Source: Boothiomyces macroporosus
Taxonomy: Eukaryota > Chytridiomycota > Chytridiomycetes > Rhizophydiales > Terramycetaceae
Assembly (NCBI GenBank): GCA_027604185.1
Contig: JADGKB010000154.1
Span: 1-26,015, forward strand
Direction: 5' to 3'
DNA: 26,015 nt
In this document: positions 1 through 26,015 of the stretch, in pieces
Position numbering within the stretch: the stretch's first letter is position 1
Layout: each line of letters opens with the position of its first letter
Translations under genes and position numbers: made by a program
The notes under the pieces: generated by a model
The model's database searches: none
What the model saw: the letters and a program-made list of their open reading frames with translations, nothing else
Told to the model about the DNA's origin: nothing

Positions 1-475
1 TACCACCACCGCCAATACCAGCAACAGCTCGTCCAGCAATCAAAAAGTTCATTGAAGTAGCAATACCGCACATCAAAGATCCAACTTCAAAGATAATGAT
101 AGCAAACATAAACACTGGCTTTCTTCCAAAAATATTACATAGTTCTCCATAAGCGGGAGAGAGAGCAGTAGATGTCAACAAGAAAGAGATACCAATCCAG
201 GATACTCGATCAAAAGCTTCAAATTCTGCACCAATTGCTGGAATTGCAGTCGCAACGATGGTACCATCAAGAGACACTGCTATTAACAATTATTTACCTA
301 AAAATACAGCCAGAGCAAATGAAATAAATACGGATACAAACTGAAAAGTGGTCAATTTTACTGCAACATAGTCCAAGTGATCGACGGGCTCCTCACTTTT
401 GACAGCTTCGATATCTGTAATATCTATCTTCTTCTCTACTTCCAAATTCTCTTTGATTTCTTTAGTTTCGGCCAT
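1..475 (-). CDS. MFS drug:H+ antiporter, DHA2-like (partial, 5' part)
   Basis: N-terminal part of a 14-helix major facilitator transporter; the gene runs off the left edge. The start is the ATG at 475, beginning MAETKEIKENLE and followed by an acidic cytosolic tail. Exon 1 is 475-298 and exon 2 is 276-1. The join restores FLVSLDGTIVATAIP, the TM1 signature of DHA2 transporters. A 21-nt intron (277-297, GTAAAT...TTAATAGCAG) interrupts the Val codon in phase 1. Without splicing the frame stops 2 codons after the donor. Sequence from 1 to 276 closely follows the paralogue at 1366-2922 (same GELCNIFGRKPVF motif A region), which has no intron here. Exporter of toxic compounds or basic amino acids is the family role; the substrate is unknown. 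Confidence 0.85.
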
Positions 476-1365
476 CAAGTGGAAAAATAATTGAACAACT
501 TTGTCTTTCTTTTTTATACAGGTTCGGGCCTCCGACTTCCGTCTTGTACTTTTTTGACAAAGCCCGACTCGGACGAAGTGAGGCAGTGAGAAGTGCACTC
601 TTCGTGATCAAACAAATCAGACAAGATTATCTTTGGTATCGCAAGTGCTTTAATACTACAAAGTGTTTGATTCTCGAAATGGAGTTTGTAGTCCGTTCAA
701 GTCTGTCAATTATCCTTTTGTTTCAAAACGGCACACTTTTGCGTCGGGTCTTTTATTTAGGAAAACCGACTTTAGGTCGTTGGCGAAATCAAGCACATCA
801 AAGCGTTTGATCGAAAATATCCGCAAGCAGCAACTGTAGCACATTCTTTCGGAGCAAATAGATACTATTGCACGCTAGATATTTTGTAAGCGATCGAAAT
901 GATTAAACTCTGAGTGGTATCGGGTTTGAGGTCTCTGGTCACCAATGAAATTGAATCAAATCTGAGTATGGAAATGCTTATTGTGATACACCACCAGCTG
1001 GTGACTCATATGCGTTGAAGCACAGATATCGGAACCTCGATCACAAAAGATCCAAGAGGTACTTTTGATTGTACTTACTCTGGCAATTACGAGCAAATAA
1101 AAGCACACGCAATCAGTCAATTGTTTCTGGAGGAGTGCTTAGGGCTTACTTCAATCGTAGATGGAAAGGTAGAGTCCAAAATCTACCTTTTCTACTAAAT
1201 TTTAGGCTGCATGAATGGTTCTGTAACCGTTCAAAACCATGTCGGGTTTGAAAAACAACTTAATGCAATGATCTTGAGTGGCACAGCGGACTTGCGGAGG
1301 AAAGATCGCAATAGTCAATCCCAACTAATATTCTCTAAAACAATTATAATAAATGTTTATTTAAA
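476..1365. other. Intergenic region between MFS paralogues with coding-like debris
   Basis: No confident gene. On the plus strand roughly 970-1340, short peptide-like stretches occur in shifting frames: YGNAYCDTPPA, then TFDCTYSGNYEQIKAHAIS, then GCMNGSVTVQNHVGFEKQL. No single splice model with the local tiny-intron rules joined all of them, and a stop lies directly upstream of the first. This may be a decayed secreted-protein gene. The left part (476-600) holds the promoter of the left MFS gene. Confidence 0.3.
511..518 (-). promoter_or_regulatory. TATA box of the left MFS gene
   Basis: TATAAAAA on the minus strand, first base 43 nt before the ATG at 475. Confidence 0.5.
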
Positions 1366-2922
1366 TTATAATGCAACCGTCATTTCACCTGACAACCTCC
1401 TATCACGGATGAATGCAGCTATAATCAAAATTGCTGCTGCTGTAGCGATACTGAAATAGTATCCTTTGCCCAAAGAGTTGCTAACATTCTGAATAATCCA
1501 GTCAGAATTTGGCATTGAGCTGATCGTCTTTGGACTTGCTTTTGCCATGGCTGCAATTTCAGAGCCCAGAGAACTATCGAGAGCATTGTTGAACACTGTG
1601 CCAAAAATAGCTAGACCAAAAGTACCTCCAAGGTTCAAAAAGAAGTTTGAAGCAGAAGTTCCAGATGCGATATCGTCTTTCGATACACCAGCTTGTACTG
1701 CATACACTCTGACCTGGATAATTGAACCAACACCCAATCCAGCAACGAAAAGAATTAGAATTTCCAAGACTTTCGGTGTAGTTGGCTGCAGAATGGAAAC
1801 CAAAGCAAGACCTGTACAAGTAATAGTTCCTCCAATAATAAACCAAATTTGGTATCTTCCTTGTGCACCAACCATTGCACCAGAGACAATCGAAGTAATG
1901 ACCAGGCCAAAAATCATAGGAATACTTTCTAGCCCAGAAGCAGTCGCCGATTCGCCGTTAACCAGTTGGAAATACGTTGGTACATAAAAGAATAGCGGAA
2001 TAAAGCAACACCCCAACAAGAACGCTGCGAGCATTGCTAGTGAAACTGATCTATCTTCAAACAGTCTCGGTGGAATAATAGGGAACTTTGATACCTTTGC
2101 TTCAACATATACAAACACTAGTGCCAAAATACCTCCTACAATCAGCAGAGTGATTGTTTTTGGATCTGACCAAGCCCAAGTTGAACCACCCAACTCCAAT
2201 GGGATCAAAATCAAGACTGTCGAGACAACAATAAAGAAAGTGCCGATATAATCCAATCTGTGCAGTTTGTCCTTGATTGACCCTTCAGGAGGTGGGAACT
2301 TCAAGTAAACAGAAACAATAACAGCAGCAATAAACCCAATAGGCAAGTTGATGTAGAAACACCATCTCCAAGTGAGTTTATCCGTAAACACACCTCCCAA
2401 CAAAGGTCCAATAACACTTGACAAACCAAACACAGCACCAATGATGCCTTGATATTTTCCAGATTCTCTTAGCGATGTAATATCGGCAATCATGATCAGT
2501 ACGCAAGAAAAGATACCACCACCGCCAATACCAGCAACAGCTCGTCCAGCAATCAAAAAGTTCATTGACGGAGCAATACCACACATCAAAGATCCAACTT
2601 CAAATATAATAATCGCAAACAAGAACACTGGCTTTCTTCCAAAAATGTTACACAGCTCTCCATAAACTGGTGAAAGGGCAGTTGAAGTTAACAGGAACGC
2701 AATACCAATCCACGACACTTGATCAAACGCATGAAATTCCGACCCAATCGAAGGGATAGCAGTAGAGACAATTGTACCGTCCAACGAAACCAAGAATACT
2801 GAAAACGCGAAAGAGATAAATACAGAGATAAATTGAAACCGAGTTAGTTTGACAGCAACTTCATCCAAATCTACAGCAGTGTCGTTTCGTAGTACTTGAA
2901 CACCAGACTCTTCCTTGTTCAT
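1366..2922 (-). CDS. MFS drug:H+ antiporter, DHA2 family (14 TM)
   Basis: Complete 518-aa, intronless ORF. The N-terminal ~25 residues are cytosolic. TM1 carries VFLVSLDGTIVSTAIPSIG (DHA2 motif D1), followed by GELCNIFGRKPVF (motif A), an Arg in AGRAVAGIGGGG (motif B) and GLSSVIGPLLGGVF (motif C, typical of antiporters). About 14 hydrophobic segments follow and the protein ends shortly after the last helix. Family members such as yeast Azr1, Sge1 and the Vba proteins export drugs or move basic amino acids at the plasma or vacuolar membrane; the substrate cannot be read here. It is a tandem paralogue of the gene at the left edge, from which it differs by lacking the 21-nt intron. Confidence 0.93.
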   Translation of the reverse strand: MNKEESGVQVLRNDTAVDLDEVAVKLTRFQFISVFISFAFSVFLVSLDGTIVSTAIPSIGSEFHAFDQVSWIGIAFLLTSTALSPVYGELCNIFGRKPVFLFAIIIFEVGSLMCGIAPSMNFLIAGRAVAGIGGGGIFSCVLIMIADITSLRESGKYQGIIGAVFGLSSVIGPLLGGVFTDKLTWRWCFYINLPIGFIAAVIVSVYLKFPPPEGSIKDKLHRLDYIGTFFIVVSTVLILIPLELGGSTWAWSDPKTITLLIVGGILALVFVYVEAKVSKFPIIPPRLFEDRSVSLAMLAAFLLGCCFIPLFFYVPTYFQLVNGESATASGLESIPMIFGLVITSIVSGAMVGAQGRYQIWFIIGGTITCTGLALVSILQPTTPKVLEILILFVAGLGVGSIIQVRVYAVQAGVSKDDIASGTSASNFFLNLGGTFGLAIFGTVFNNALDSSLGSEIAAMAKASPKTISSMPNSDWIIQNVSNSLGKGYYFSIATAAAILIIAAFIRDRRLSGEMTVAL

Positions 2923-3418
2923 TTTGAATTAAAATTTCAAGCTGGTGGTTTTATAGTGGAAAAATGGTGACACGACGTTTCAAGTTTCATCTGTGTCGGC
3001 GGAATGCGTAAAAAAGTCTCCGCCAGCGATATTAATTGTGAAAATATAACGGGAAAACTCATGGAAATGCTTCCTACTATCTACTTTTAATACTGGCCAT
3101 CTTTTCCGGCTATTTTTTCCCGTTTATTGCTCTAAAGAAAGTTTTTTGTTTGTTTTGAAACTGGTCGGGTTCGCCAATGATTCATCCGTGGAAGACGGAC
3201 AGGGCGCCGGTTTTCCGATCGTCTATTGCAACTTAATACTTGTAAGTGGTAGGAACATTAACCTTAAAGGCAATTTAATTTAATGACCTTTCATGGCATT
3301 TGAATCCGCCATGAGGAATTTGTTTGCATGACATCAACTGTCACAAGAACAAATCAATGAATCGACGATAATGAGTCACTTGTGGGCACTGGATTCAAAA
3401 TATTTAATAATGCTTTAT
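2923..3418. other. Intergenic region upstream of the MFS gene
   Basis: Promoter of the MFS gene and 3' flank of PFS2. It contains CGG/CCG-rich inverted motifs: GGCGGA...TCCGCC near 2999-3025, and TCCGT-GGAAG-ACGGA near 3185-3200. Such triplets are typical of Zn2Cys6 regulator sites at fungal drug-transporter promoters, but no binding protein can be assigned. No coding potential seen. Confidence 0.4.
2949..2955 (-). promoter_or_regulatory. TATA box of the complete MFS gene
   Basis: TATAAAA on the minus strand, 33 nt from its first base to the ATG at 2922. Confidence 0.6.
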
Positions 3419-5014
3419 TTATCGTTGGTTAAATCCATATTTATGGTTTTGGTTCTGAAACTGGTTCTGATATCCATTATGATTATAATTCGATTGATTA
3501 GTTCTGTGTCCGGGTAAGCTGTTCCATCCACTTGGTTCTTCTTTTTCTTTCTTTGAGTATCGTGGTATTCTGTTGCTATCCAATCCAGGCAGCCCAGGTA
3601 ATCCTTGCTGCTCTTCTTCCTTTTCGTCGTTATGAGCAGAGTTGTCTACCATCAATCCTAAAGAATCTGCTTCTTCTTTTGTCAAGTTAATCTTGTCATT
3701 CATCAAATCACCAGGTCTATTTCTAGTCCAGAATTTTGTAGTGTGGTCATTACTTCCACTTGCTAGTAAATGTCCAAGTGGGTGCCAGTCTAAAGAGAAG
3801 ATTGAAGATTCATGTGCTTGCTCGATTGCCATTACAGGATCATGTTGCCCAACCAACCAAAACAATAATCCTCCTTCCCAGCCGCCAGAAGAGAACAGAT
3901 TTGAATGAATGGGGTGCCAAGCAATAGACTGAACTTCACGCTTGTGCCCTATAGTTATAAACAAGTACCTCTAAATATCTGCACTTCTTTCATTGTTCTA
4001 ATATCATACAGCCTAACCAATTGATCTCTACAGCAAGTCAACAACCAGTTTCCATTCTTGTTCCATTCACACTGCATAATGGTATTTTTATGTCCATGCA
4101 AAGTTGCTAATGCTTTCCCAGTCTTTGGATCCCATATCTTTGCCAAATTATCTTTCGATCCAGAAGCCAGTATCCCTTTGAATGGATGCCACGCAAGACA
4201 CTTTACATCCCACCCGTGCCCAGTTAAAACACGTTCTTCTTCAGCATCGTTAAAAGACCTGTATTAACTAAACAAACCAAATCTTGATTGTACCATCATC
4301 AGAGCAACTTGCGAATTTAGAATCGTTTGGAGAAAAAGACAAGTCACGAACGGTCTCCTTGTGTGCATTCACAATCTTTAAATTATTCATATTAGACTGC
4401 CAGTATTTGATTATCCCTTTTATCAATAATGGTAACCTGAATCGTCTCCACTGAGCATCCAAGTGTCGTTGTGAGACCATTTCATACTCCTGATGGCTGA
4501 ATCATGTGCCTGTAGAATAGTTTCAAAATTAAATGTTAGTCCGTTCCATAGAGTAAATTCTCCACTACTAGCAGCTGTAATTAGCCTTCTACCTTCCGGT
4601 GTCCACTTTTTAATCAGTAAATACCTATATTAATTTGAAATTGCCTAATGATAAATCAAAAGAAACCTTTATTGCATTGATAGGACACCTGACTTTATTA
4701 GTTGACTGGTGGATAAACTTTGTTGTAACTGAAGAAATGGGATTGGTTTCGTAAGCTATTGGAGGCAAGTAATTGACAACGAAAGAAGACTCTGGCTGAG
4801 AAGCAATGTAATCTCCATACTTGTTTACTTGCCGTAGTTGTAAATGGCGCATAATGTTTGAGTTGTAATCTATGGTTCTTCGCTGAATAGCTTTCCTCAC
4901 ACGTTTACCTACGTTAATGAAGAGTACCTGGGTTAGTAATAGGTTGCCATCAAACCCACGGGATTCAGACAAGTGCTGGGGATTGAAACCACCAACTGTT
5001 TTTCCCTTGTCCAT
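3419..5014 (-). CDS. PFS2: Pfs2/WDR33, WD40 subunit of the mRNA cleavage and polyadenylation factor
   Basis: Scaffold of the nuclear pre-mRNA 3'-end processing complex, contacting the AAUAAA signal with CPSF30/Yth1. Six exons: 5014-4948, 4908-4667, 4605-4437, 4416-4278, 4258-3969, 3948-3419, giving 478 aa. Recognisable parts: [18 protein letters not shown] at the N-terminus, [82 protein letters not shown], then FWTRNRPGD closing the WD40 region. The C-terminal tail has [11 protein letters not shown] and a Gln/Asn-rich end. Introns are 39, 61, 20, 19 and 20 nt; the two longer ones are compound (see separate entries). The start is the first ATG in frame, MDKGK. It is nearer to animal WDR33 than to S. 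cerevisiae Pfs2, from memory of those sequences. Confidence 0.95.
4606..4666 (-). other. 61-nt compound intron of PFS2 (22 + 20 + 19 nt)
   Basis: Lies between CPINAIK and WTPEGRR, which are contiguous in homologues, and contains in-frame stops. It splits exactly into 4666-4645 (GT...ATTAG, 22 nt), 4644-4625 (GCAATTTCAAATTAATATAG, GC-AG) and 4624-4606 (GTATTTACTGATTAAAAAG). It may be spliced once, end to end, or unit by unit. Confidence 0.75.
4909..4947 (-). other. 39-nt compound intron of PFS2 (20 + 19 nt)
   Basis: WDR33 proteins read FDGKR(M/V)RKA at this point; here 13 extra residues separate FDG from KRVRKA. Removing 39 nt restores the motif. The segment is two perfect mini-intron-like units in a row: GCAACCTATTACTAACCCAG (4947-4928, GC-AG) and GTACTCTTCATTAACGTAG (4927-4909, GT-AG). 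Both end TAAC-NN-AG. It is in frame and free of stops, so retention is also possible. Confidence 0.7.
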
Positions 5015-7080: not shown

Positions 7081-9005
7081 CTACACTTCAGTCGCACTAG
7101 CAACCTTCTCTCTTTCTACAATCTCCTCACTAGAATTATTCCTTGATGACAGTTTAGGAATCTTGGAGGTAGACAACACAGATTTCCTCAATTTGGGGGT
7201 TGTAGCAGCAGAGTTGGGGTAAGACTCTACCCTCTTTGCATCGGCTATTGATTTATTCGATTGCATGGTTTTAGTTGGTGACTCTAGTAGTTCTTCTTCT
7301 CTACCAGATTTATCCTTGATTGATTCGTCTTCAGGGACGGCAGAAGGAGGGCGAGATTCTTTCTTTTGGGTTAGTTTTGATGATAGGTGTTGTGTTTGGT
7401 TCTTTTCTAGTGCAAAACTAACGTTGGCTTTGTCTGCTTTGTCTTGGATTACTTTGACGATATTTTCTATATTATTCTTGATTACCTTTTCCTTCTATTT
7501 TTACTGTTTGATACTTTGTTGGTGCTGGTTTCTTTTCACTGGCGTGATTTTGTCTGGTTGCTATGGTTAGGCAATCTTACTGGAAGACTCTCTTGATTTA
7601 CTACCAGTTTCTTCCTTTAATTTACTAGAGCTTTCTGCTTTCAAGTTACTCGTGCTTTCTTTAAGTTTAGATGTAGATGTGTATGTCTTGGAATGCTCAG
7701 TTTCTGATTCAGTGCCAGATGGCTCATTGTACTGCTGGCTCATTTTCCTCTTGTGGGAAGTGTTTGGTTTGGTAGGCATTTCAGAAGCTGCCTCCTGTTC
7801 TGTATGGTGCCGAACTCTTCCTCGCTGAGTAATTGGCCGGATTTTGCTGATAAATTCATTTCGGAGAGTAGCACCGTTCAACCCGACACCATGAGTGTGT
7901 TGAATAGCCATTACATTATATCTCAACTTGATGAAAGGATCGTCGTTGGCTACTAGCACATTCACTGGTCTTAAATCATCAACGTTGTATATCCTGGTCC
8001 CATCAACAGCATAAATCTTTTGAATCTTGCCTGTTACCAACTGAATTTGAGAATTCAATACATCAAGAACCTGCATTAGTAAAGTGTACCTTGGACAGCG
8101 AAGGAAACCGCTTCTTTGTGATGGATAAACTCAAGCCCAAGTGGTAAGCATCGCCATTAGGAAAGAACCGGACTACTTTTGGCTTTTCATTTTCTTTTTT
8201 CATCACTGGCACATGGCTCTCCAAGTCGATAAAGTGGTACGGCAATTTCTTGAATGGATCGAAAGAAGACAGTACAATGTTTTGCCCTGGCTGTAGATCA
8301 TTCAGTACCCTGATGCGTTTACCAGTCTTGGCATCGTAAAGTTTCCGTACTTGGCCACTCTTCAAGATCTTTAGTGATGACAGGTACTTTAGCAACTGAA
8401 TTAATAGTATTTACCTGCTCGAAAGTTTTACAGTTTCGATGATTCAATATTAATCTTATTCCTTCGCTCTTTGCTTCTCCGTTCTCAAATACAGCTATTT
8501 TGAACGCCTTTGTCTGCATTAGTAAAAAGTACCGTTGGGCTGAACAAAGATTCTGAATTAAGAGTCCTAATTTCTGCTTTTTGCTCTTCCGTAAGTAACC
8601 CGCCAGTAGACCTATTAATTTTCCTTCTAGCCAAAGTAGACTGCGATGGCTGCTGCATAGACAACGTTCCCCTACCAACCCCAATAAACACAGGCGGAAT
8701 CTGATCTTCTTCTACCAAATAATCTACTTTTTTAAATGGCTCCCCGCTAGTTGCAACATAAAAGCGTGAATCATGAAGCTCATCGAGTGATCTGATTCTC
8801 GTTCCATTCATGTCAAATATCCTGCGAACCCCCCCTATTAGCTGTATATCCCGCGAGCACTCTGTCAAGAACTGACTTAATTTTCTGTTACCTGTTCAAA
8901 ATTCTTGACGTAAGAAGATACTACTATTTTTTTTCCTGGATAGTAGATATCCCCGTTCCTGTATAACCTGATTTTTGTTGCGTGCGTATCGATAATGGAC
9001 GCCAT
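7081..9005 (-). CDS. Triple doublecortin (DCX) domain protein
   Basis: Doublecortin domains bind the microtubule lattice, so a cytoskeletal or ciliary/flagellar role is expected. Seven exons: 9005-8892, 8871-8533, 8513-8415, 8395-8090, 8070-7581, 7560-7486, 7466-7081; 602 aa. The six introns are 20, 19, 19, 19, 20 and 19 nt. Domain 1 (about 11-92) has KIRLYRNGDIYYPGKK, VRRIFDMNGTRIRSLDEL and FYVATSGEPFKKVDY. Domain 2 has FKIAVFENGEAKSEG and VRKLYDAKTGKRIRVLNDL. Domain 3 has KVVRFFPNGDAYHLG and IQKIYAVDGTRIYNVDDL. The rest (about 340-602) is a Ser/Lys-rich disordered tail with KLKE/SS repeats. A phase-0 intron sits at the equivalent place in all three domains. The start is the ATG just before the first domain (MASIIDTHATKIR). 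Confidence 0.92.
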
Positions 9006-9247: not shown

Positions 9248-10575
9248 TTATTCCTTATCATCCAGACCATTAGTCATATGGCACAAAACGCTCGCTGCCT
9301 GGGACAAGTCTTCCATAGGCTGGCTGTCTAGATGCTGTTCGTTGATAAATTCGCTATTAAAATCTTGTTCGACAGGCTCAACTCTTTGCTTTGTTGCTGC
9401 GAGGCTCAAGGACCTATTATTAATTGAATTATACCAGCTGTTAAAACCAGGTATTAGACCAACATTCCTAAAGCAATTGGCAAATTCGATAACATTGTTG
9501 CCCATGTAAAATGCAACGTATGAATTGAAACCGTTCTTTTGAGGATCTATGTGACGGAGAATGCAGATGGGATGCTGGAGGATAGGGGTAAACCAATCAG
9601 CTCCAAATTCGGCTCTGATAATGAATATACCTTCATTATATTCCTTGCTGGCGTATCGAGTAAATATTACGGATAAGAGTCTTTCAATTCCAGTTTCTTG
9701 ATCATTGCTAGTAGTCGAGAACGGTAATGAAGAACTAAGATCACAAAAAATTCTTCCATACCAAGTTTCCTGTTCAAGAGCGTAGAATTCAGCAGTGGAT
9801 TTACATACCTTGTCAAATTCTTGTCCGGTAACGGTTCGCTGCGCCAATTCATACACATACGCAGCATCAAATGGAAGCTTTGGTTTTTCAAGTCGCATTC
9901 TAGCCCTTTTCTTTGGAGGAGTCTGTTCTTCATGTTTAAGGATTTGCTGGTCGAATTCAAGATTCAACTCTAGTGGTTCAGCGACCACGGTATCTTGTGA
10001 TTGAGAATTGGTAAATTCCAACTGATCTTCTTCTTCCTCTTCAGTGTCCGAATCCTTTCTTTTTAATCTACGTTTTTCTGGTTTTCGCTTCTTTCTTGGA
10101 GATACTTTCTTTTCCGATTTGTAATTTCTTGATGCAAGATATGCTTCCAAAACAGCCTAAATTAGCCTAGAAATACTGTAGTGATGACTCCGTTTGGAGC
10201 GGTCTGATTTACTTCAATCCAAGCATCGACCAGCTGTTCCGGAGGGACTTTGGACAGTAGCTGGCAATGCGACTGATACATGGGTGGAGCATAATTGGCA
10301 GGGAGCTTTGCAACGATATCTGAATAAACCCTGTATGAGATGATGTATTCGTATGTGGTTGATTTGGAGAATCCTAAATTCACTTTTGTCCATTCAAGGA
10401 ATTCCTTTTGGTTCTTTACAAGTTTGTCTTGGTAATATAATTTGTGTAGGGTTTGGCCAATAGTTACAAATGAAGCGACATTCTTTGTTTCATGGAGAAT
10501 CTTATTCTTTAAGCCTTCCAAACTGTCGTCCGTAGTCATAAAGTACGAAAGGGATGGACAAATTTTTTCTTTCAT
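9248..10575 (-). CDS. Unidentified nuclear-type protein, 435 aa (possible HTH plus degenerate methyltransferase-like C-terminus)
   Basis: Two exons, 10575-10177 and 10156-9248, joined across the 20-nt intron GTATTTCTAGGCTAATTTAG (10157-10176): VITT|AVLEAYLASRNYK. Residues 1-140 are helical and include LHKLYYQDKLVKNQKEFLEW and GFSKSTTYEYIISYRVYSDI, reminiscent of bacterial DUF3102/HTH segments. Residues ~145-175 are strongly basic (KKVSPRKKRKPEKRRLKRK), a likely nuclear localisation signal, then an acidic run EEEEED. The C-terminal half has FIIRAEFGADWFTPILQHPI and FNSYVAFYMGNNVIEFANCF; the pattern weakly recalls phage-type N6-adenine methyltransferases, but no DPPY motif is seen. I do not assign a function. 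The start could also be the ATG 12 codons further in. Confidence 0.8.
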
Positions 10576-11799: not shown

Positions 11800-12740
11800 T
11801 TATTTTTGTGATTCATTTTTTCCAGTGATTATTTTAGTTGCTGCCATTGTGCCGACAGTGATACTCGGCCTTACTGGCTCTGAAGTCCTTTTTCTACTGC
11901 TGCTACTATTGGAAGACGTTTCTTGTGGAAAGATACATCTTTGGGCAAAGATAATCCTATACCCAATAATCGCAGTGGTAATATGAATTAGTATTTGTGA
12001 TAAATTCACTGATAGCCTATTCACATATGGATCGGAAATATAGTAGTAACCCATGTACAACATTGTACATAATATCGAATTGAGGATAATCATGTAACTG
12101 AACCATTTCAGCTTGACGAAATTTGATTTTGCCAAGATGTACTTTTCCACATCCTCTTCGCTCTTTGAAAATTTAAACACAATGTATTTTTGTATCTTGA
12201 CTGCTGAAAATGACGCCAATGCTATTTCAAACAGCACTCCAATTACATTGAATACGACTAAACCTAGATCTCGTATCTAATTAAGTCAGCGAGTACCGTT
12301 AAGGAAATCGGTGGGGCATTGTTGTTTGCAATCATTACCAATGTAACTGTTATTGGAATGAATATTATTACAACAAACCATAATATCCAAATTACTTGTA
12401 TTATCTGTACCGTCCGTTTCTTTATATTCGACAACACAATAATAACTTTGATGAATTCCAATTCACAGTATCCTTTCATAGTGAGTGACATAAATAAGAA
12501 CACTCCCTTCGCATAATCTATAAACAATATGAATTGACCGCAATTAAAGTAGTATAAATAGAGAATCTGGGTAACAACACTGACAAAGTACAAGATATAA
12601 ATTGGGTCTCCAGGTTTAGTTTTTTTCCAAAATATCGAAGTTGCAGTAATGACAAGTGTTGATAATAGAGTTACTATTTGTATTGTAATCTGAATGGCTC
12701 CGTATACTGATGTAGGACTGAAGAATATGGAGTCTGACAT
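11800..12740 (-). CDS. Seven-transmembrane receptor-like protein, family member A
   Basis: 306 aa in two exons (12740-12297, 12276-11800) with the 20-nt intron GTACTCGCTGACTTAATTAG (12277-12296). Splicing gives ISLT|IRDLGLVVFNVIG. Seven hydrophobic segments: four before the intron, three after it. Family hallmarks: GYCELEFIKV at the end of TM3 with a basic IC loop (NIKKRTVQ), VIWILWF opening TM4, a charged loop FSKSEEDVEKY between TM5 and TM6, and GYRIIFAQRCIFPQE after TM7. The Lys/Ser/Thr-rich C-tail is predicted cytosolic. The topology is that of a GPCR, but I recognise no known class (no Ste2, Ste3, Gpr1 or Pth11 motifs). Head-to-head with member B. Confidence 0.85.
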
Positions 12741-12814
12741 TTTAGCTAATGACGTTAACTTGCCACGTTTAAAAACCGCTTGATGGACAAGACGATTAGA
12801 TGGAAATTATTACC

Positions 12815-12879
12815 ATTGCAATTATTAATGAGTGGTAGAGATGCTTATCTTTGATATTATCTACAGTAATAATTGCAAT
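12815..12879. repeat. Inverted repeat, 13-nt perfect arms
   Basis: ATTGCAATTATTA (12815-12827) and its exact reverse complement TAATAATTGCAAT (12867-12879), with a 39-nt spacer, in the divergent promoter. Confidence 0.8.
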
Positions 12880-12963
12880 CTCATTGTTTTTAATCGAAAA
12901 TATTGACAGAGTTCATAGATGCGTCTAATTTAGATTTTCCGACAGTCAGCAATATATCCTTGA

Positions 12964-13020
12964 AGATCTATGAAAGCTGGAGCATCATTAGGCGAGCCAT
13001 CGGATCTTGCTCATAGATCT
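12964..13020. repeat. Inverted repeat, 10-nt perfect arms
   Basis: AGATCTATGA (12964-12973) and TCATAGATCT (13011-13020), spacer 37 nt. Similar geometry to the neighbouring inverted repeat. Confidence 0.75.
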
Positions 13021-13123
13021 GAATACGTAAACCTCGGATAAATGAACTGATAAACTTGAGCCATTATCACTCTTGCTTTGTAATACAAGCCAAAGATAAT
13101 AAATTATCGCTATCAACTAATTG

Positions 13124-13131
13124 TATAAATA
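13124..13131 (+). promoter_or_regulatory. TATA box of 7TM member B
   Basis: TATAAATA, 42 nt before the ATG at 13166. Confidence 0.6.
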
Positions 13132-13165
13132 GAGAGCTTTACGTCACAAATTTGTTGATCCTCTT

Positions 13166-14094: not shown

Positions 14095-14229
14095 AGGAAG
14101 TCTCAACCATCTCTTTTCAAATGAATTGTTTTGACTTTGAATATCTTGCTATGATCAATATTGATTGCAGGATGGTGGAATAGACGTTTGATACTGTAAT
14201 CCAGTTTGACTTCTAAAAACGTCACAATA

Positions 14230-15169
14230 ATGTTGCAAGATCAAAATATACAAGATGACATTACCCTCTGGATAATTCAGATTGCAGTACAAATAATAAT
14301 ATTCTTGGTCACTGGTACATTTGCTATTTATTCCTATTTCAGTCCTGCATTCAAAAAGAAGAGCTACGACAACAAAACCAAATCTTTGATTACCACCAGT
14401 CTAATCACGCAAACAAATTTACTAGTATATTTTAATGCGCCTTTCAACGACCCAACATTTTCACTCATTACAAAATTAATCTTTTTCACACTATTTCTAG
14501 TTGTTGCAATTTGCGAATGGGACTTTTTACGAAGGATTAGCTCTATATTAGCATGTAGAAAAGAAACTATTTCAAAATTGCAGGCTGTGTGGATCCTGTG
14601 GAGCTTGTTAGCTGGCTGTTTGCCAATTATCCTAATTTTCATTTCCAATGTGTTTCCATTACCAGATAATGTATTCAACATAATTTTACTGGTAAATGAT
14701 ATTAATATAGTGGAGGGAAATATCATCGTTGATTTATGATTTATCTTGCGTAATTATGGAGTTTACCCTATCAGCAATTGCGATTAAATCCATCCATTCG
14801 TTCATATTAGCCAAATACTCCAAGAACGAAGGTGAAGATAATAATTACAGAATAGCGTCAAAGAACTTCCATAGACTTATTTACTTGACTATTGGTATAG
14901 TCTGCCTCAATTCCACTTGTGTACTATTGTATATTCTGGGAATCATTACTACAGACATTTATGTTTCGCTGCTGCTAAACAATTTATCCCAGGTACTCAT
15001 TAATCTAGGGCCATCACTTATTGCCTTCAGGTTTCTGCTCCGTCAAAGCTGCATATTTCCTTCAGATGGTTATGAAGAAAAAGATACAAAGGGCAATGTA
15101 AAATCATTTGGTGTATATTCCCTAGCCAGGACAAGAAAGATTGATGCCGCAGATAAAGGGGGTAGTTGA
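14230..15169 (+). CDS. Seven-transmembrane receptor-like protein, family member C
   Basis: 306 aa. Exons 14230-14691 and 14711-15169; the 19-nt intron (14692-14710) is GTAAATGATATTAATATAG. The join LILL|WREISSLIYDLSCVIMEF matches member D. The TM3 motif is altered to VAICEWDFLRRISSI, and the following loop is ACRKETISK. The end motif is AFRFLLRQSCIFPSD, with a tail rich in Lys/Asp. An in-frame TTG lies 8 codons upstream; I chose the first ATG (MLQDQN). No TATA box is evident in the 135 nt before it. Confidence 0.85.
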
Positions 15170-15333
15170 TGTGGGAAATATTGTTAATGTCACCCACTTG
15201 CTCCAAATTTCAAATGCCTTGACCATCAATATACAGAGTAAATGTTCATCCAATAAAGCATTTTCACCTCTGTTGTTTTTCCCAGCTATGACAAGATTTT
15301 TTTGACAGCTTTGCTCTTCGTCATCCCAAGAAA

Positions 15334-16290
15334 ATGTTCCACCCTGATATATTGAAATACGACTTGCTATACTGGATAATACAGATCACAATTCAAATTA
15401 TTGTCTTTTCTGGCACTTTTACGTTTGCCTGTTATTCACTGTTCAGTCCTAAATTCAAAAAGAAAACTTACAATTTAAAAACTAAATTTCTATTATTAAT
15501 CAGCCTAATTTCTCAATTAATTAATTTCGTTTATTTCAATACTTACTCATCAAGCGGGATAGAACTAGCATCTGATTTGGCAGTGTTCTCTGGGTTCACT
15601 TGCCTGGGATACTGCGAATTGGATTTTCTTAAATTAATCAGTGTTATTTCGATATTCAAAAAGAAAACATTTATACGGCTGCAAGGTGTATGGATAGTTT
15701 GGTGTATAATCATGGGATACATCCCAGTTATTGCAGATTTCCTTTTTGGTATTCTATACCCCAACCAACCAATATCAAAAAGTGTTACTCAAGTATTCGG
15801 TAGCTAACAGCAGATTCGCGAGATTAGCTCAATAATATACGATAGCTCGTGTGTACTAATCGAGATGGCTCTCGCTACAATTGCCATATCATCAATTCAC
15901 CATTACATCAAGAGTAAATATTCAACGAATGAGGAAGAAAAGATCAACTATGAAAAAGCGCTTGGGAATTTCAGCAAATTAAAACATCTGACAACCACAA
16001 TAGTCGTGGTTAACACACTATGTATCTGGCTGTTTGCAATGAGCTTTATTTACCAGGATATCTATCAATCAACACTATCCAGCAATGCCGCTCAAACACT
16101 GGTACATATCAGCCTTTCTCTAGTTGCATACAGATTTCTAGTCTCTCAAAGCTGCCTGTTTCCAACTGATCAAGTGCCGCCAAATTCAGTAGAGACACCG
16201 GGGAAATCTTTGGCAAAGTATTCCATGGCGAAAACCAAAAAGTTTGACTTTAGCCGCTCCATCAAAAACCCCTCTGGTAGCAGCCAATAA
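15334..16290 (+). CDS. Seven-transmembrane receptor-like protein, family member D
   Basis: 311 or 312 aa. Exon 1 is 15334-15792; exon 2 starts at 15814, or at 15811 if the first of two tandem acceptors (CAGCAG) is used. The shorter choice makes the intron 18 nt, GTATTCGGTAGCTAACAG. Both forms are in frame (Q|IREISS or Q|QIREISS); retention would stop at the TAA. Hallmarks: LGYCELDFLKLISVI, FKKKTFIRLQ, NEEEKINYEKALGNF, AYRFLVSQSCLFPTD. The cytosolic tail (about 45 aa) is Ser/Lys-rich. The stop lies 49 nt before the GDA1 start. Confidence 0.85.
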
Positions 16291-16339: not shown

Positions 16340-17724
16340 ATGCCAGGCAAACCAAATTTATTCCGGCCAATAGTACTGATACTGTTGCTGGTATTTCTCT
16401 ACCTCTTGTTCAGCCCGTCCAATCTGGGTGCAGTCAAGAAGCAGGAGGAATTTGCGCTGTTAAAAACTAAAAAGTGCTCACTGGTACACAAGGGAATGCC
16501 GGATATACAGTATGCCATAGTGATCGATGCAGGGTCTACAGGGTAATTACCGCTAACTCAGATCTCGTATTCATGTCTATCGATTTAATTATTGTAATCA
16601 AGCACCGGAGCTGGAAGATGAAGTATTTGTCATTACCAAACCAGGTTTGTCTTCCTATGTCGACAACCCAAAAGCTGCAGCAAATTCTCTCGACAAATTA
16701 TTAAAAGAAGCGGTCAAAAGCGTCCCTGTTCAACTCCAAAAATGTACACCAATTGCCGTCAAAGCAACTGCTGGATTACGAATGTTGGAAAATGGAATGG
16801 GTGAACAGATCTTGAAAGAAGTTGAAAAGAAACTAAAGAACGAATATCCATTCCCACTGATCAAAGACGGAGCGGTAGAAATCATGGGGGGAGACGATGA
16901 AGGTAACTTTAGATAACAAAGGTGTATTTGCGTGGATTACAATCAATTATCTTTTAGGAAATATCGGTGGAAGCGATAAAAAGCCTACTGTTGGGATTAT
17001 GGACTTGGGTGGTGGTTCGACCCAAATTGTTTTTGAGCCATCAAGTATGATTCAGCCTGGCTCCCATAAAAAAGAATTGAAATTCTCTGGTCATGAATAT
17101 GTACTCTATCAGCATTCTTATGATGGCTATGGGTTGATGCAAGGAAGAATGAAGATCAAGAAAGCCTCAAAGAATGAAGCGCCTTGTTTACCAGAAGGAA
17201 AAAAGAGTACTTTGAAAATCGGAGATTCAGAACTAGAGCTTCATGGCACCGGGAATGATTTTGATAAGTGCTTTTCGTTTATAGCCGAAAATCTATTCAA
17301 CAAAGAAGAAGCATGCAGCCTGAATCCATGCTCTTTTGATGGTATTTACATGCCAAATCTCAAAGAAAGCTTCAAGAACGACCTGTATGCCTTTTCTTAT
17401 TTCTACGATAAATTCGCCAACCCGTTCAACCACGAAGTTTCTTTTGAACTATCCCAAATGAAATTCCAAGCAGACAACATCTGCAGCAAGAGTCCAAAGA
17501 TACCACAAGGTGGAGTAAAAGAGTACGAAAAGAACAATGACTGGTGTATGGATTTAGGATTCATGTACTCTTTATTAACCGTTGGCTACGGATTGCCAGA
17601 CACTCATGTAGTTAAGACTACTAAAAAAATTAATGGAATTGAAATCGGATGGTGTCTAGGTGCGGCCATTCAAATGATTGATAACCAGCAGACTGACCCC
17701 GACTATGCACAATGTCGTGTTTAA
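16340..17724 (+). CDS. GDA1: Golgi guanosine diphosphatase (GDA1/CD39 family)
   Basis: Hydrolyses GDP released by Golgi mannosyltransferases to GMP, allowing GDP-mannose/GMP exchange. Three exons: 16340-16542, 16562-16902, 16922-17724; 448 aa. Introns are 19 nt each: GTAATTACCGCTAACTCAG and GTAACTTTAGATAACAAAG. One signal-anchor (FRPIVLILLLVFLYLLF, about residues 8-24) gives type II Golgi topology. All apyrase-conserved regions are present: ACR1 IDAGSTG|SRIHVYRFN (split by intron 1), ACR2 AVKATAGLRML, ACR3 GGDDEG|VFAWITINYLLG (split by intron 2), ACR4 VGIMDLGGGSTQIVFEP. The C-terminal Cys pairs of the family are visible. It converges with the DPAP gene, with 18 nt between stops. Confidence 0.96.
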
Positions 17725-17742: not shown

Positions 17743-20483
17743 TTATTTGCATTCCATTTTAAAATTGAAGCATATGTACGATGTTAATAGTCTAAACACT
17801 TGGCTTTGAGCACCATTGGCACCCATGCTATGATCGCTATCGGTATAATACTGCACGGTGTATCCTTCAACGCCAGCACCTGTTAGTTTCCACACCAATC
17901 TGGCGCTATTCTGAAAATGCACGTTATCTATGTTAAAAAGATGTACCATCTCCAGTCCCGTGAATCATCAAGAACTTTGCATTTCGGAATCCGTTCATCC
18001 TGGAGATTGCTGATTCCTTGTATCCTTCTGGATTCTCTTCGGGTGTCTGCATATACCGCTACATTAGAAAAGAGTACTTCTGTGTAAATTGAATCGTATA
18101 GTTTCCAGTCTGTAACTGGTGCAACAGCCATTCCAAGCGAAAAGATTGTTGAATCTTGTTCAATGGTTTTTGATGTTAGGAATCCACCAAAACTCCAGCC
18201 CCAAATGCCTATTCTTGAGCTATCTATGAACGAATATGTATCTGCTAAATATTTGGCTGTTGTAATGAAATCTTGGGATTCATGTTTGCCTAGGTTCTTG
18301 TACACTGCTGTACGGAACTTTCTACCTTTGAATCCTGTTCCTCTTGCATCCACAATAACGCCTATAAACCCATGTGCCGATAATTGATAGAGATAGTCGA
18401 TACTGTATATTTTGTTTACTTTTTGATGATTAGGTCCGCCATAGATATCAAACAAGACAGGGTACTTTATGGTTTTATCAAAGTTAGGCGGCAGAATAAC
18501 TTTGCAATTCAGTTCATCACCTTCAATTGGAACTGACAAGTACATTAGTTGGGGTAATTCATAAGTTTCGTGTAGAGTTTGGTAAGAATCCCATTCACTG
18601 GTGAATTTACCAAATGAAGGATCGCCAATCTTTTCAATTCTTTGCCAAGGAATATCTGGGCCAAGATATGCAATGCTATAGTATGTACACCCGGGAGAGA
18701 ACCTGGCATCATAATATCCTTCATTTCCAATCTCTTTGCCAATTTCTTTTTCGTATTCCTTGACAACCCGATATTTCTTTATGCCATCCATAGGTGTTAG
18801 TTGAGTTTTTTCTCCGCTATAGCTCACTCTAAATAAATGTCTTTGGGTAGAGTGAACCTCGGTGCTTGTATAGTAAACGTATTCGTCAGTAACACCTTTG
18901 ATTGCATCGATTTCATACTTTCCACTTGTAAGCCATTCTGGTTTAGCGGATTTGGGATCTTTGAAATACGCTATATGAACGTATCCTTCTTCATTGTCCA
19001 ACAGCTCCAAGTAACTACCACTGATTACATTAATAGAATGCATCTGAATTAATTCCAGTCACCTTTGTAAACCAAGCGCCATCAACAGTTTTCTCATCTC
19101 TAGTAAGACTAGCAATCCACTTTCCATCTTTTAATTCAACCAGATACACTTTTTGATGATTTTGAATTCTGTTCATACACCGTACAACGAAAACTGTTGG
19201 CTGCAACCATTTCAATTCAGCAATAATAAGATCTTGTGATTGGAATACTTGAGGCAATAATATATCGTGATTTTGGACATTTAAATTGGATACTTGGGCG
19301 ACGTGTAAAGTAACTTTTGGATTCGGTGTTCCTGGTTTAGGATATTTATAGTCAATCTTTTGTGGGTACTGATCGTAACCCGCCTTGTCATAATACTGCA
19401 ATTCAAAGTCTTTTACAAGTGTTTCATTGTATTTCAAGTAAGCTACACTAGTGCCATCCAAAGAAATCCAAGAGCTCTGCGGATTATTTAATACTTCTTC
19501 TAAAATTAAGAATAAAAACCTTCGTATACCCAATCAGATATCCCATTGATAATGTTTTTAGATCCATCATTTGTAATTTGCAATTCATGTCCATCAACAG
19601 TAAAGTGCAAGTCATTATCCCTGACCCATACTAAATTATGTCCAACTGGTGCCCACAACACCAAAGCAATCCTACCACTGCCCAGTTCATTCTCTATTAT
19701 CTTGTCTGATACAGTCAAAGTCAACGGTTTCGTAGTCTTTTCTTTAATGCTGTAGATATAGTAATCAGCAAAGAAAGAATGTCTCCATCCACGCTGGACA
19801 TTTGCGGTCAATAGAATATACTCCATGTCTTTGGATAACTCCCAGTTTGTAGGTGTGATTGGTCCCTTTTCTGTTTTGAAATCATTCACATTTGCAATCA
19901 CTGTTTCGTTTCCGTATTCAATGTGAGATAACTTGATTACCCCGTTTTCCATTGTAGCCCTGGTTCCATCAGGAACCATAGGGGATTTCAGCCAGTTATT
20001 ATCTTCATTTAAATAACCAGATGTCTGGTATCCTGCCAGCATTTGGAAAGTAACTGGTTTCTTTGTTGGTTCAACAGGTGCACCAGTTTCCTTTGGTTCT
20101 ACTGGCTCCTTGTTTACTTGTTCTGGTTCCTTGTTTACTTGTTCTGGTCCCTTAACTACTTGTTCTGGCTCCTTGTTTACTTGTTCTGGCTCGTTTGGTT
20201 TATCAAGTTCTACTTTATCATTGGGTATTTCGGGAGTATTTTGGTTTCCTGTCCCATGATCTACAATAGGATTGTTTTCTACGGGTGCATCATCCTTTGT
20301 AGGCAGTCCAGCAATCATGAATAATATGGCAAACAACGAGATGACGCTTACCACCGCAATCAGAATTAAACGCTGCTTTTTCTTTCCCATCCGCCTATGT
20401 CTCTGGCGGATGTTTACGGGTCTGTCAGGGTTGATTCCTAGCAACTGCTCATTGTCCTGCATTTCAATATCGTCAGATTGCAT
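17743..20483 (-). CDS. Ste13/Dap2-like dipeptidyl aminopeptidase (S9B, DPPIV family)
   Basis: Removes X-Pro and X-Ala dipeptides from peptide N-termini; in yeast, Ste13 (Golgi) matures alpha-factor and Dap2 acts in the vacuole. Exons 20483-19520, 19499-19063, 19043-18078, 18058-17947, 17927-17743; 887 aa; introns 20, 19, 19 and 19 nt. Cytosolic tail 1-38, one anchor (about 39-60), then a stalk with 7-residue repeats of the KEPEQVN type (about 100-135), a beta-propeller carrying the DWVYEEEVL substrate-anchoring Glu motif (Glu 321-323), and the hydrolase domain. The triad is visible: Ser ~751 in GWSFGG, Asp ~826 in HGTGDDNVHFQ, His ~859 in DSDHSM. Ste13 versus Dap2 cannot be decided from sequence alone; the nearby precursors rich in X-Ala/X-Pro favour a Ste13 role. 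Confidence 0.95.
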
Positions 20484-20923: not shown

Positions 20924-21682
20924 TTAATGGCTGCGAGAGAGCTACATTAACTAATATTACCTTCAAGAATTCATCTCTGGTTTTTCCATCTTCACGGAAT
21001 ACTCCCAACATGCAAGAGGTGATGGTGCTAGTGCTTGCTTTTTGAACTGGATTAGTATAAAATACCTCCCCTCATTACCATGCACATGTGGTTTGCCTCC
21101 ATGGTAACCTAAGTCAAAAATAAAAGTACTGCTACTCCTTGTGGGTGTAGTACATCCATTAAAGCAGTAGCGACTTGTTTAGTCAATCGTTCTTGCACTT
21201 GAAGACGTCTAGCAAACATTTCGGCAATACGAGCCAATTTGGATAGCCCAATTACTTTTTGATTTGGAATATACGCGATGGTCATCTTCATTAGCAAGAT
21301 TTACCTTTCCAATAATAGGCACCATATGATGTTCGCACATGGAGCAAATATCAATGTTCTTTACCATCACCATTTCTTCATGATTTTCTTCAAACACGGC
21401 TTGGTTAACGAGTTCTTCCAAGTTGGAATTGTAGCCTTGAGTCAAAAAATCCAATGCTTTTGCGTATCGCATTGGCGTCTTTAAAATACCTTCTCTATCT
21501 ACATCTTCACCAAGGTTTTCAAGAATGATTTTTACTGCATCGGCTATGCGTTCTAATCTCTGTTGCTTTTCTTCTGGAGTCTCCTTGAAGCGCTTGGCCA
21601 TTCCCTGAGGTGCCCATGATAATCCGTTTTCATCTACTTTTACCGATTTAGCAGAAGCAGCTCTTTCGTGATTAGGAGACAT
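20924..21682 (-). CDS. FOL2: GTP cyclohydrolase I
   Basis: Converts GTP to dihydroneopterin triphosphate, first step of folate and tetrahydrobiopterin synthesis; cytosolic decamer. Five exons: 21682-21305, 21285-21130, 21108-21066, 21046-20961, 20941-20924; 226 aa. Introns are 19, 21, 19 and 19 nt. The zinc ligands are Cys and His in [13 protein letters not shown] and Cys in [10 protein letters not shown]; other landmarks are [35 protein letters not shown] and [14 protein letters not shown]. Intron 4 restores the usual short C-terminus EFLKLSRSH. The last coding exon is only 18 nt. The N-terminus has the fungal [18 protein letters not shown] segment. Confidence 0.96.
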
Positions 21683-23696: not shown

Positions 23697-24633
23697 TCAT
23701 TTATTTTTTGACATTATTATTTTAGTGACTGTTGCAGTTGATTTTGTCACTTTTGGAGTTGAGAGTTTCTTGTCCTTGCTGTTTGTAGGAGTATTGTCTT
23801 GTGGAAAGATACACTGCTGAGCAGCAATGAACCGATAGGCAAACATGATGGTAGTTAGATGAACGACTATCTGCGATGAATTACACGATAGTTTTCTTAG
23901 TACATCGTCTTCAATTCTAAAAGAACCAAGATACAGTGCTGAACAAAAAAACGCATTGAACACTATTCCATAGCTGAGGTATTTCAGTCGTTTGAATGAA
24001 GCTATGGATAGCGTATATTTCGCATCCTCGTCTTCATTCTTTGAATACTTTCGAACAATGTACCTACGAATTATAAATGCCGCGTAAATGTTGGTTATGA
24101 ATTCGAGTAACGTTCCTAAGACGTTGAATACCATTGCGCCTAAATCGCCATACTAAATTAGTATTTTTTACCTGTTTGAATAGTAGCAAATAATCTGGAT
24201 AGGCAAAAACCAGTATCAATCCCACTGTCAACGGGAGAAACACAAGCAGTAGCCAAATAACTACCCAGAGTATCTGAAGCCCAAACAAAAGCTTTTTAGA
24301 TAGTACTGATATAGATGATAATAGCTTTAAAAATTCAAATTCTGAATGACGGTTAATAAACAAGATAGTGAACAAGCAATATCCGCGAGTGAAATTCAGA
24401 CCTACATTTGCAAGTGGATTATTATAATATGCGATATATACTATTTGTGTAATGATGGATGCTACATATAACACTTTGATTTGCTTGTGTAATTTAGTTA
24501 CTTTGGAATCAATCTTTAGAAACGTGTATATAGTGAATGTTGTACATGTGAATAATACCCCAATTTGTAGAAACAACTGAAATTGTCCGGCTGGAATGGT
24601 TAGTGGGAGGTAGTCTGAATTAATGTTTGACAT
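23697..24633 (-). CDS. Seven-transmembrane receptor-like protein, family member E
   Basis: 305 aa. Exons 24633-24172 and 24152-23697; the 19-nt intron is GTAAAAAATACTAATTTAG (24153-24171). Splicing gives LLLFKQ|YGDLGAMVFNVLG. It groups with member A in the second half (DLGxxVFNVxG, ...FSKSEED/YSKNEDED loop). The TM3 motif is HSEFEFLKLLSSI (Cys lost), TM4 LWVVIWLLLVFLPL, end motif AYRFIAAQQCIFPQD, tail rich in Lys/Ser/Thr. It lies 7.4 kb from the main cluster and 0.5 kb from the peptide precursors, diverging from the first of them. Confidence 0.85.
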
Positions 24634-25133: not shown

Positions 25134-25431
25134 ATGAAATTCACTTACTTGTTTGTTGCTTCCTGTTTAGCTCTTCCGTAACGCTGGAATTAATCTTAGA
25201 GCTCAAAAAAGAGAGGCAAACCCAGATTATATTGGCTGGCCATTCTATTCCAAGAGGGAGGCAAACCCAGACTTTATCGACTGGGAATACTATGCAAAAA
25301 GAGATGCAAACCCAGACTTTATTGACTGGCCATTTTACTCAAAGAGAGATGCAAAAGCTGACCCAGATGCCTTAATTAGAAACAAACGTGAAGCACAACC
25401 AGAACCAGCTCACGTCAGATTTAGAAAATGA
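25134..25431 (+). CDS. Kex2-processed repeat peptide precursor 1 (pheromone-like)
   Basis: 91 aa. Exon 1 25134-25177, a 22-nt intron (25178-25199, GT...TTAATCTTAG), exon 2 25200-25431. Signal peptide MKFTYLFVASCLALPA, then five segments each introduced by KR: NPDYIGWPFYS, NPDFIDWEYYA and NPDFIDWPFYS after EA or DA, then DAKADPDALIRN and EAQPEPAHVRFRK. Layout equals that of yeast alpha-factor precursors: KR for Kex2, acidic X-Ala spacers for a Ste13-type peptidase. NP, KA, DP, QP and EP continue the dipeptide ladder. Likely secreted peptides DYIGWPFYS, DFIDWEYYA, DFIDWPFYS and LIRN. No spacer pro-region with sequons is seen, unlike MF-alpha1. Pheromone, other signal peptide or structural Kex2 peptide cannot be separated by sequence. 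Confidence 0.85.
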
Positions 25432-25752: not shown

Positions 25753-25764
25753 CATGGATATTCA
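25753..25764 (+). promoter_or_regulatory. CATGGATAYT motif, copy 2, upstream of precursor 2
   Basis: CATGGATATTCA, immediately before the TATA box. Confidence 0.4.
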
Positions 25765-25765
25765 G

Positions 25766-25773
25766 TATAAATA
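25766..25773 (+). promoter_or_regulatory. TATA box of precursor 2
   Basis: TATAAATA followed by GGAG, 39 nt before the ATG at 25805. Confidence 0.6.
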
Positions 25774-25804
25774 GGAGAGCAGATCAAGCATAATCATAAC
25801 TATC

Positions 25805-26015
25805 ATGCAATTCACTTACTTGTTGTTCGCTCTCGCATTATCTGCCCCATTGTAATTTCAATTTGATAATAGAAATAAAAGAGAAGCATCTCCAGAACCA
25901 CTTCGATTCGTAAAGCGTGAACCAGAACCACTCAGATTTGTCAAACGTGAAGCCGAGCCTCTTAGATTTGTCAAACGTGAACCAGAAGCAGAACCACTCA
26001 GATTCGTAAAGCGTG
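25805..26015 (+). CDS. Kex2-processed repeat peptide precursor 2 (partial, 3' end beyond window)
   Basis: Exon 1 25805-25851, a 21-nt intron (25852-25872, GTAATTTC...GATAATAG), exon 2 from 25873 to the window end. Signal peptide MQFTYLLFALALSAPL, nearly the same as in precursor 1, with the intron at the same point. Then NKR and repeats EASPEPLRFV, EPEPLRFV, EAEPLRFV and EPEAEPLRFV, each followed by KR. Every residue pair between KR and LRFV is X-Ala or X-Pro, so stepwise dipeptide removal turns all copies into the same core, LRFV. The spacer length varies (2-3 dipeptides), the core does not. The sequence is still in a repeat at the window end, so the copy number is unknown. Confidence 0.85.

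Follow-up and report, generated by a model that had tools for sequence, protein, structure and literature searches.

The record for intron shortness is attributed to ciliates, nucleomorphs and a few parasites. In the Bigelowiella natans nucleomorph, a 373 kb relic algal nucleus, they occupy a narrow band of 18–21 nt with GT-AG ends and an intact U6 ACAGAGA, with shrunken U1 and U5 and reportedly no identifiable 5' splice-site motif (PMC6461891). The heterotrich ciliate Stentor coeruleus has introns of 15–16 nt with the branch A 5 nt before the end, a weak branch consensus and conserved U1, U2 and U6, with Slu7 and Prp18 reported as undetected (PMC9505925). The mikrocytids are described as obligate parasites with 224 very uniform introns of 16–17 nt that share their sequence and with 17–19 identified spliceosomal proteins (PMC10245619), whereas Paramecium introns are given as many and nearly all short, with a median of 24–25 nt and a range of 15–100 nt in P. 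bursaria (PMC12862383). A kindred constraint appears in human introns spliced with SPF45/RBM17 instead of U2AF, which leave no room for a normal pyrimidine tract even in a model intron of 56 nt (PMC8363638). A 2025 paper called its own 23-nt intron comparable only to those of Stentor and Bigelowiella (PMC12316389).

Sequence comparisons make it very probable that in a chytrid fungus, too, the U2-type spliceosomal introns have shrunk genome-wide to a functional minimum of 19–22 nt. The species, Boothiomyces macroporosus (Rhizophydiales), presumably free-living, was studied through a stretch of 26,015 nt (the window) and its draft assembly of 216 contigs and 15.2 Mb; no report of genome-wide 19–22 nt introns in this chytrid was found in the literature. 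In length these introns come near the minimum recorded for any organism. They parallel those of the nucleomorph in their narrow band, GT-AG ends and intact U6, but the chytrid has an ordinary genome, clear donor and branch motifs and a canonical U1 5' end. Relative to Stentor they are 4–6 nt longer and have a strong YTAAY, and Slu7 and Prp18 are present, while the branch A lies as near to the end, U1, U2 and U6 are likewise conserved and the same steric problem of a tight lariat arises. Like those of mikrocytids they are tiny, very uniform and similar in sequence, but they number around 15,000 by extrapolation, with only U5 missed among the components searched. They share with those of Paramecium their abundance and general shortness, but are shorter and less wide-ranging, and they are far shorter than the human model intron. 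Reduction of genome and spliceosome of the nucleomorph or mikrocytid type was considered and set aside, given the 15.2 Mb and the presence of U1, Prp8, SF1, U2AF65, Slu7 and Prp18 in a search that otherwise covered U2, U5 and U6 and missed U5.

Within the window, 29 coding introns were re-derived in 14 genes, with 15 of 19 nt, eight of 20 nt, four of 21 nt, one of 22 nt and one of 61 nt; thus, 28 of the 29 span 19–22 nt, the sole longer one being that of 61 nt. An earlier note on this DNA had placed 30 positions in 14 genes, 28 of them of 18–22 nt. Its gene number and its counts of fifteen 19-nt and eight 20-nt introns were recovered, the total became 29, and its lower bound of 18 nt gave way to 19, as no intron of 18 nt occurs in the curated set. 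Twelve gene models run from ATG to stop with no internal stop and with a length that is a multiple of three, the last as had been claimed for every complete model, and the remaining two are truncated by contig ends. The further claim that removal restores textbook motifs was borne out by ungapped junctions for 14 of the 15 introns in five conserved genes. The fifteenth, DPAP_2 (19 nt, 19044–19062, minus strand, placed by frame and motif), was dropped from this count because of a gap near the junction in the DPP4 alignment.

The MFS transporter intron (21 nt, 277–297, minus strand) is excised exactly, as seen from an intronless, 82% identical paralogue at 1366–2922 that aligns ungapped over FLVSLDG; with this paralogue as guide, an 18-nt reading was set aside for 21 nt. 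On the same strand, the WDR33/PFS2-like gene has PFS2d (20 nt, 3949–3968), PFS2c (19 nt, 4259–4277), PFS2b (20 nt, 4417–4436) and the exceptional PFS2a (61 nt, 4606–4666), all ungapped at the junction against WDR33. A 94-nt GHMM call in this gene was a wrong path, as were calls of 83 nt and 61 nt within FOL2. A 19-nt look-alike at 4909–4927, in an open frame of its poorly conserved N-terminus, was provisionally kept as exon; a 32-nt GT..AG stretch (4928–4959) lies directly upstream of it. With a caret for the junction, GDA1 on the plus strand has two 19-nt introns, GDA1_1 at 16543–16561 (GST^GSRIHVYRF, ungapped against P0001, P0003 and P0006) and GDA1_2 at 16903–16921 (GGDDE^GVFAWIT, ungapped against P0002, P0003 and P0006). 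The other DPAP introns, on the minus strand and with no gap at the junction against DPP4, are DPAP_4 (19 nt, 17928–17946, HGTGD^DNVHFQ), DPAP_3 (19 nt, 18059–18077, SIYTE^RYM) and DPAP_1 (20 nt, 19500–19519, DWVYE^EEV). Those of FOL2, also on the minus strand, are FOL2_4 (19 nt, 20942–20960, EFLK^LSRSH against EFLQLSKGH), FOL2_3 (19 nt, 21047–21065, MVMRG^VQK, ungapped), FOL2_2 (21 nt, 21109–21129, QGVA^VTMEA, ungapped) and FOL2_1 (19 nt, 21286–21304, ungapped junction).

Frame and motif place the introns of the doublecortin-domain gene (minus strand, with DCX domains): introns 1 (20 nt, 8872–8891), 2 (19 nt, 8514–8532), 3 (19 nt, 8396–8414), 4 (19 nt, 8071–8089), 5 (20 nt, 7561–7580) and 6 (19 nt, 7467–7485), where a 41-nt intron at 7561–7601 was rejected in favour of a 20-nt intron plus exon. 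The same holds for the 20-nt intron (10157–10176, minus strand) of the gene at 9248–10575, which has no Pfam match. Five paralogues of a membrane-protein family have an intron at about the same site, which falls in a variable stretch: copies A (19 nt, 24153–24171, minus), B (20 nt, 12277–12296, minus), D (19 nt, 14692–14710, plus) and E (21 nt, 15793–15813, plus) by frame and motif, and C (20 nt, 13631–13650, plus) by frame. In copy E a tandem acceptor also permits an 18-nt reading. In two pheromone-like precursors on the plus strand, removal of introns of 22 nt (25178–25199) and 21 nt (25852–25872) joins an N-terminal stretch to KR-EA repeats, the second gene being truncated at the contig end. 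The repeats had at first suggested a budding yeast (Babjeviella or Nadsonia) as the source, an origin rejected when protein matches pointed to a chytrid.

Beyond the window, junctions are ungapped for all six Prp8 introns, all four of U2AF65 and a 24-nt intron of SF1, which has a one-residue gap two or three residues upstream; Prp8 and SF1 introns were counted on alignments, and those of Slu7, without alignment, were left out. Across the 25 ungapped junctions, 23 introns are of 19–22 nt, one is of 24 nt and one of 61 nt. The length limit is therefore not absolute, since introns of 61 nt and 24 nt occur in conserved genes.

That ultra-short introns are the rule, as the earlier note held, is upheld by statistics over the window together with a further 200 kb of this genome. 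A GHMM gene finder given no length or motif prior made 42 of 109 GT..AG calls at 18–22 nt, versus 4/97 for TG..GA, 6/94 for CA..TC, 4/100 for GA..TG and 3/88 for AC..CT; an earlier setting gave 73/276 versus 9/276, 7/267 and 8/257 in controls. At 23–300 nt this prior-free model found no GT..AG excess (65 calls versus 82–88 in controls). A motif-trained version placed 188 of 263 calls at 19–22 nt (55, 85, 33 and 15 at 19, 20, 21 and 22 nt). The finder is mostly blind to stop-free introns whose length is a multiple of three, such as a 21-nt intron within the zinc knuckle of SF1, and its counts are therefore low for these. One 28-nt call (L032) is a candidate intron only. Over the 15.2 Mb, a single variant of the motif was counted 2,684 times and the reversed pattern 117 times, which suggests a genome total of roughly 15,000 introns. 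With the score threshold set to retain 90% of introns, 12 look-alikes turned up in 164 kb of exon; they are not depleted there, the sense strand giving 12, the antisense strand 12 and codon-shuffled sequence 14.5.

The anatomy of these introns is equally constrained. The donor consensus is (A/G)^GTAATT and the acceptor YAG; in the motif-trained set, +3 is A in 91%, +4 is A in 66% and +5 is G in only 11%. The A of the branch motif YTAAY is found 13–14 nt downstream of the initial G and 5–6 nt short of the intron end. With the branch A chosen by a rule favouring YTRAY, 161 of the 188 introns have it at offset 13 or 14 and 168 have it 5 or 6 nt from the end; the motifs include TTAAT (60), CTAAT (36), TTAAC (17), TTGAT (10) and CTAAC (8). 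U12-type introns have a long conserved donor and a TTCCTTAAC-like branch site; this minor class was rejected, the donor here being GTAATT and the branch YTAAY instead.

The search covered U1, U2, U5, U6, Prp8, SF1, U2AF65, Slu7 and Prp18, and most of these components are present, U5 being the one not found. The U1 5' end is the canonical ATACTTACCTG, which would pair with the donor, in a match of 68.8 bits, below the Rfam cut-off of 69.5; the U2 GUAGUA, complementary to the branch motif, is intact in both copies, as is the U6 ACAGAGA. An RF00020 search gave no match for U5, whose absence is not thereby shown. Read exon by exon, U2AF65 scores 230.7 bits, below the family cut-off of 310.3, and the spliced protein is a clear match to U2AF65. 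By eye, rather than by domain search, a UHM was seen in none of seven G-patch matches, an outcome compatible with the presence of SPF45.

Public annotation of the species partly records the same introns. From a protein that fuses L24 with U2AF65, four introns at the re-derived sites can be deduced, with lengths of 19, 20, 19 and 19 nt; the L24 portion has one of them and the U2AF65 portion the other three. Other tiny introns in the public models checked have been wrongly stretched, with loss of conserved stretches or fusion of genes.

Several other explanations of such segments can be weighed against these patterns. Translational bypassing (ribosome hopping), or removal by a non-spliceosomal nuclease and ligase, could in principle act on segments this short, though no result spoke for it; against it stand the splice-site and branch consensus, the extreme spacing constraint and the conserved pairing sequences in U1, U2 and U6, and it is highly improbable. 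Developmental elimination from DNA, in the manner of ciliate internal eliminated sequences, would suit segments that are short, AT-rich (0.718 versus 0.609 in CDS) and precisely removable; it is extremely improbable given the GT..AG ends, the branch motif at fixed spacing and the encoded spliceosomal core, and fungi are not known to eliminate such segments. Sequencing errors or pseudogenes might be suspected in a draft assembly, but the chance of this is close to negligible: the 19–22 nt insertions carry motifs, recur about 15,000 times by extrapolation, appear in genes such as Prp8, and lie at or near sites where public proteins of close relatives break. The spliceosomal nature proposed by the earlier note is thus the reading that the sequences support, through the GT..AG excess, a branch motif that would pair with U2 at fixed spacing, a donor that would pair with U1 and U6, and restored conserved residues; the lengths, tightly clustered close to the shortest known and with no long class, mark these introns as an ultrashort system.

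The 61 nt of PFS2a can be divided into intron-like units of 22, 20 and 19 nt, with starts GT, GC and GT and ends in AG. This would suggest three adjoining tiny introns removed stepwise through AG^G(T/C) junctions, a rather unlikely reading: the case is single and post hoc, and among 35 calls of 23–130 nt inspected, in a scoring run that could mix sequences, one tiled as two units (21+20), the first possibly exon. It is more doubtful still, and decidedly improbable, that the spliceosome has a fixed length ruler with bounds of about 19–24 nt both ways, by which longer interruptions are cut in tiny steps; if true, this would be recursive splicing on the smallest scale.

For U2-type introns of this size, splicing may be pictured as follows. 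U1 would mark the donor and SF1/U2 the branch site, whereupon U6 would take over from U1. In so cramped an intron, the binding of U1 and of U2 would have to be sequential or to involve rearrangement. After the exchange of U1 for U6, the helix of U6 with the donor and that of U2 with the branch site would lie almost end to end, with a lariat loop of 14–15 nt and a tail of 5–6 nt. Given the short distance from branch to end, U2AF65 would have no room to bind a conventional pyrimidine tract downstream of the branch. Nearly all the information for recognition would sit inside the intron. On the practical side, annotation errors arise in the public models checked where tiny introns get stretched. 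More broadly, a chytrid whose genome is ordinary and which has kept U1, U2, SF1 and U2AF65 would offer a fungal system for minimal introns. It could serve to address how 13 nt can accommodate both U1 and U2, what U2AF contributes when there is no pyrimidine tract, and what determines the lower limit.

Gene models rebuilt from the raw sequence place 29 coding introns in 14 genes of the window, of which 15 are 19 nt long, eight 20 nt, four 21 nt, one 22 nt and one 61 nt. After splicing, 12 of the 14 models are complete from ATG to stop, with the frame kept and no internal stop, and the other two are cut by contig ends (the MFS transporter at 1–475 and the second pheromone-like gene); left unspliced, every one of the 14 meets at least one stop. 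The earlier note had counted 30 positions, 28 of them of 18–22 nt: these counts stand, and the lower bound is moved from 18 to 19 nt. The sole long intron of the window (4606–4666, 61 nt) divides into units of 22, 20 and 19 nt, each beginning with GT or GC and finishing with AG. In the PFS2-like gene, an open frame at the 5' end holds a 19-nt intron look-alike that adjoins 32 nt bounded by GT and AG (4909–4959).

The claim that excision restores conserved protein is borne out at 25 junctions that are gap-free when aligned to homologues or a paralogue, 23 of them of 19–22 nt introns. They comprise 4/4 in FOL2, 2/2 in GDA1, 3/4 in DPAP (the fourth with a gap nearby), 4/4 in the PFS2-like gene against WDR33, and the single MFS junction against an intronless paralogue, also within the window, with 82% identity. 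Beyond the window, they comprise 6/6 in Prp8 against solved PRPF8 chains, which we take to be human, 4/4 in U2AF65 against Globomyces, and a 24-nt intron of SF1, gap-free at the junction itself, a single-residue gap lying two or three positions upstream; Slu7 introns are excluded from this count. Two more SF1 introns lie outside the 25, one of 22 nt and one of 21 nt in the zinc knuckle (locus L027, around 960–981, minus strand); the latter is in frame and stopless, and hence invisible to frame analysis, because its retention would merely add seven residues. The other 14 window introns are placed by frame and motif, and for five of them also by paralogues that align variably at this site.

Five paralogous predicted membrane proteins (11800–16290 and 23697–24633) carry one intron apiece at roughly the same site, of 19 nt in copy A and 20, 20, 19 and 21 nt in copies B–E; copy A, the copy tested, had no Pfam match. 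Two further genes (25134–25431 and 25805–26015) encode precursors with a signal-like N-terminal stretch followed by peptide repeats set off by KR-EA or KR-D, and the first had no Pfam match. Such repeats resemble those of yeast alpha-factor precursors, which are unexpected in a chytrid.

Chance was addressed by replacing GT..AG with control dinucleotide pairs. With a coding model trained on 101 long ORFs, a gene-structure model scanned both strands of the window and of 200 kb from the first ends of five other contigs, a non-random sample, allowing introns of 10–300 nt with all lengths weighted equally. Calls of 18–22 nt made up 42/109 for GT..AG versus 4/97 for TG..GA, 6/94 for CA..TC, 4/100 for GA..TG and 3/88 for AC..CT. 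Longer introns show no excess, since calls of 23–300 nt numbered 65 for GT..AG versus 88, 83, 88 and 82 for the controls. An earlier run with other penalties and a 400-nt limit gave 73/276 versus 9/276, 7/267 and 8/257.

A second run, using the motif learned from these 42 introns, placed 188 of its 263 calls at 19–22 nt (55, 85, 33 and 15, respectively), a density of 1.09 tiny introns for each kb of coding sequence in the models. There were no calls at 18 nt, one below it, one at 23 nt, 12 at 26–60 nt, 25 at 61–150 nt and 36 at 151–300 nt, the long calls being read as mostly adjacent genes fused by the model. The pattern GTAA-N7,8-TAAT-N1,2-TAG has 2,684 matches in the 15.2-Mb genome versus 117 for its reversed control; 35 of its 42 matches in the 226 kb coincide with called introns. 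It is present in 33 of the 188 sampled introns, a share that, with the genome matches, extrapolates to about 14,600 introns. Tiny introns are widespread in this genome.

At the donor of the 188 introns, G occupies −1 in 49%, A +3 in 91% and +4 in 66%, and T +5 in 50%, with G at +5 in just 11%. Under a selection rule that favours YTRAY, the commonest branch pentamers are TTAAT (60), CTAAT (36), TTAAC (17), TTGAT (10) and CTAAC (8). The branch A lies 13 (n=83) or 14 nt (n=78) from the first G and 5 (n=109) or 6 nt (n=59) from the intron end, and the acceptors are TAG (125), CAG (42) and AAG (21). U1, scoring just below the Rfam cut-off, starts with ATACTTACCTGG; GTAGTA is kept in two U2 genes and ACAGAGA in U6, while a search for U5 found none, which does not show its absence. 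The U2 genes (L022 and L023) are largely alike in their 5' halves and differ in their 3' halves. Genes for Prp8, SF1, Slu7, Prp18 and U2AF65 were detected, the last below the family cut-off exon by exon and a clear match after splicing; in our own models, all except Prp18 contain tiny introns. From the donor and branch anatomy together with these snRNA and factor genes, we infer a largely normal spliceosome at its geometric limit. The U6 and U2 helices would be almost in contact on the intron, U1 and U2 would need to bind one after the other or with rearrangement, and U2AF65 would probably act without an ordinary pyrimidine tract downstream of the branch site.

Boothiomyces macroporosus, presumably free-living, belongs to the Terramycetaceae (Rhizophydiales, Chytridiomycota). 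Its public annotation was judged from protein sequences, and HK103_002678, the best match of U2AF65 (gene on contig C2), was mapped back onto the DNA. This protein fuses an L24-like ribosomal protein gene to U2AF65 across 253 nt (locus L031). It implies introns of 19, 20, 19 and 19 nt, one in the L24-like part and three in the U2AF65 part, coinciding with those modelled here, and stretches another 19-nt intron to 52 nt, losing 11 residues that are kept in Globomyces and Kappamyces. The best named matches are Boothiomyces sp. JEL0838 and Terramyces sp. JEL0728 for GDA1 and JEL0838 for FOL2. The public JEL0838 proteins lack VFAWITINYLLG in GDA1 and run out of frame past HMCM in FOL2, and the Terramyces GDA1 is three residues short where its first junction lies; JEL0838 keeps the first GDA1 junction whole, as Terramyces does the second. 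As these breaks fall at, or a few residues from, the intron sites found here, they suggest that the relatives share the introns.

Among the matches listed from the openly accessible literature, judged by titles and abstract openings, there was no report of tiny introns in a chytrid. The consulted passages of a survey of 644 fungal genomes describe intron lengths from intron-free microsporidia to means of a few hundred bases and mention nothing comparable (PMC8476143). By every sequence test applied, the tiny introns are real, with their splicing predicted, and they extend a rare type of gene architecture to a new lineage.
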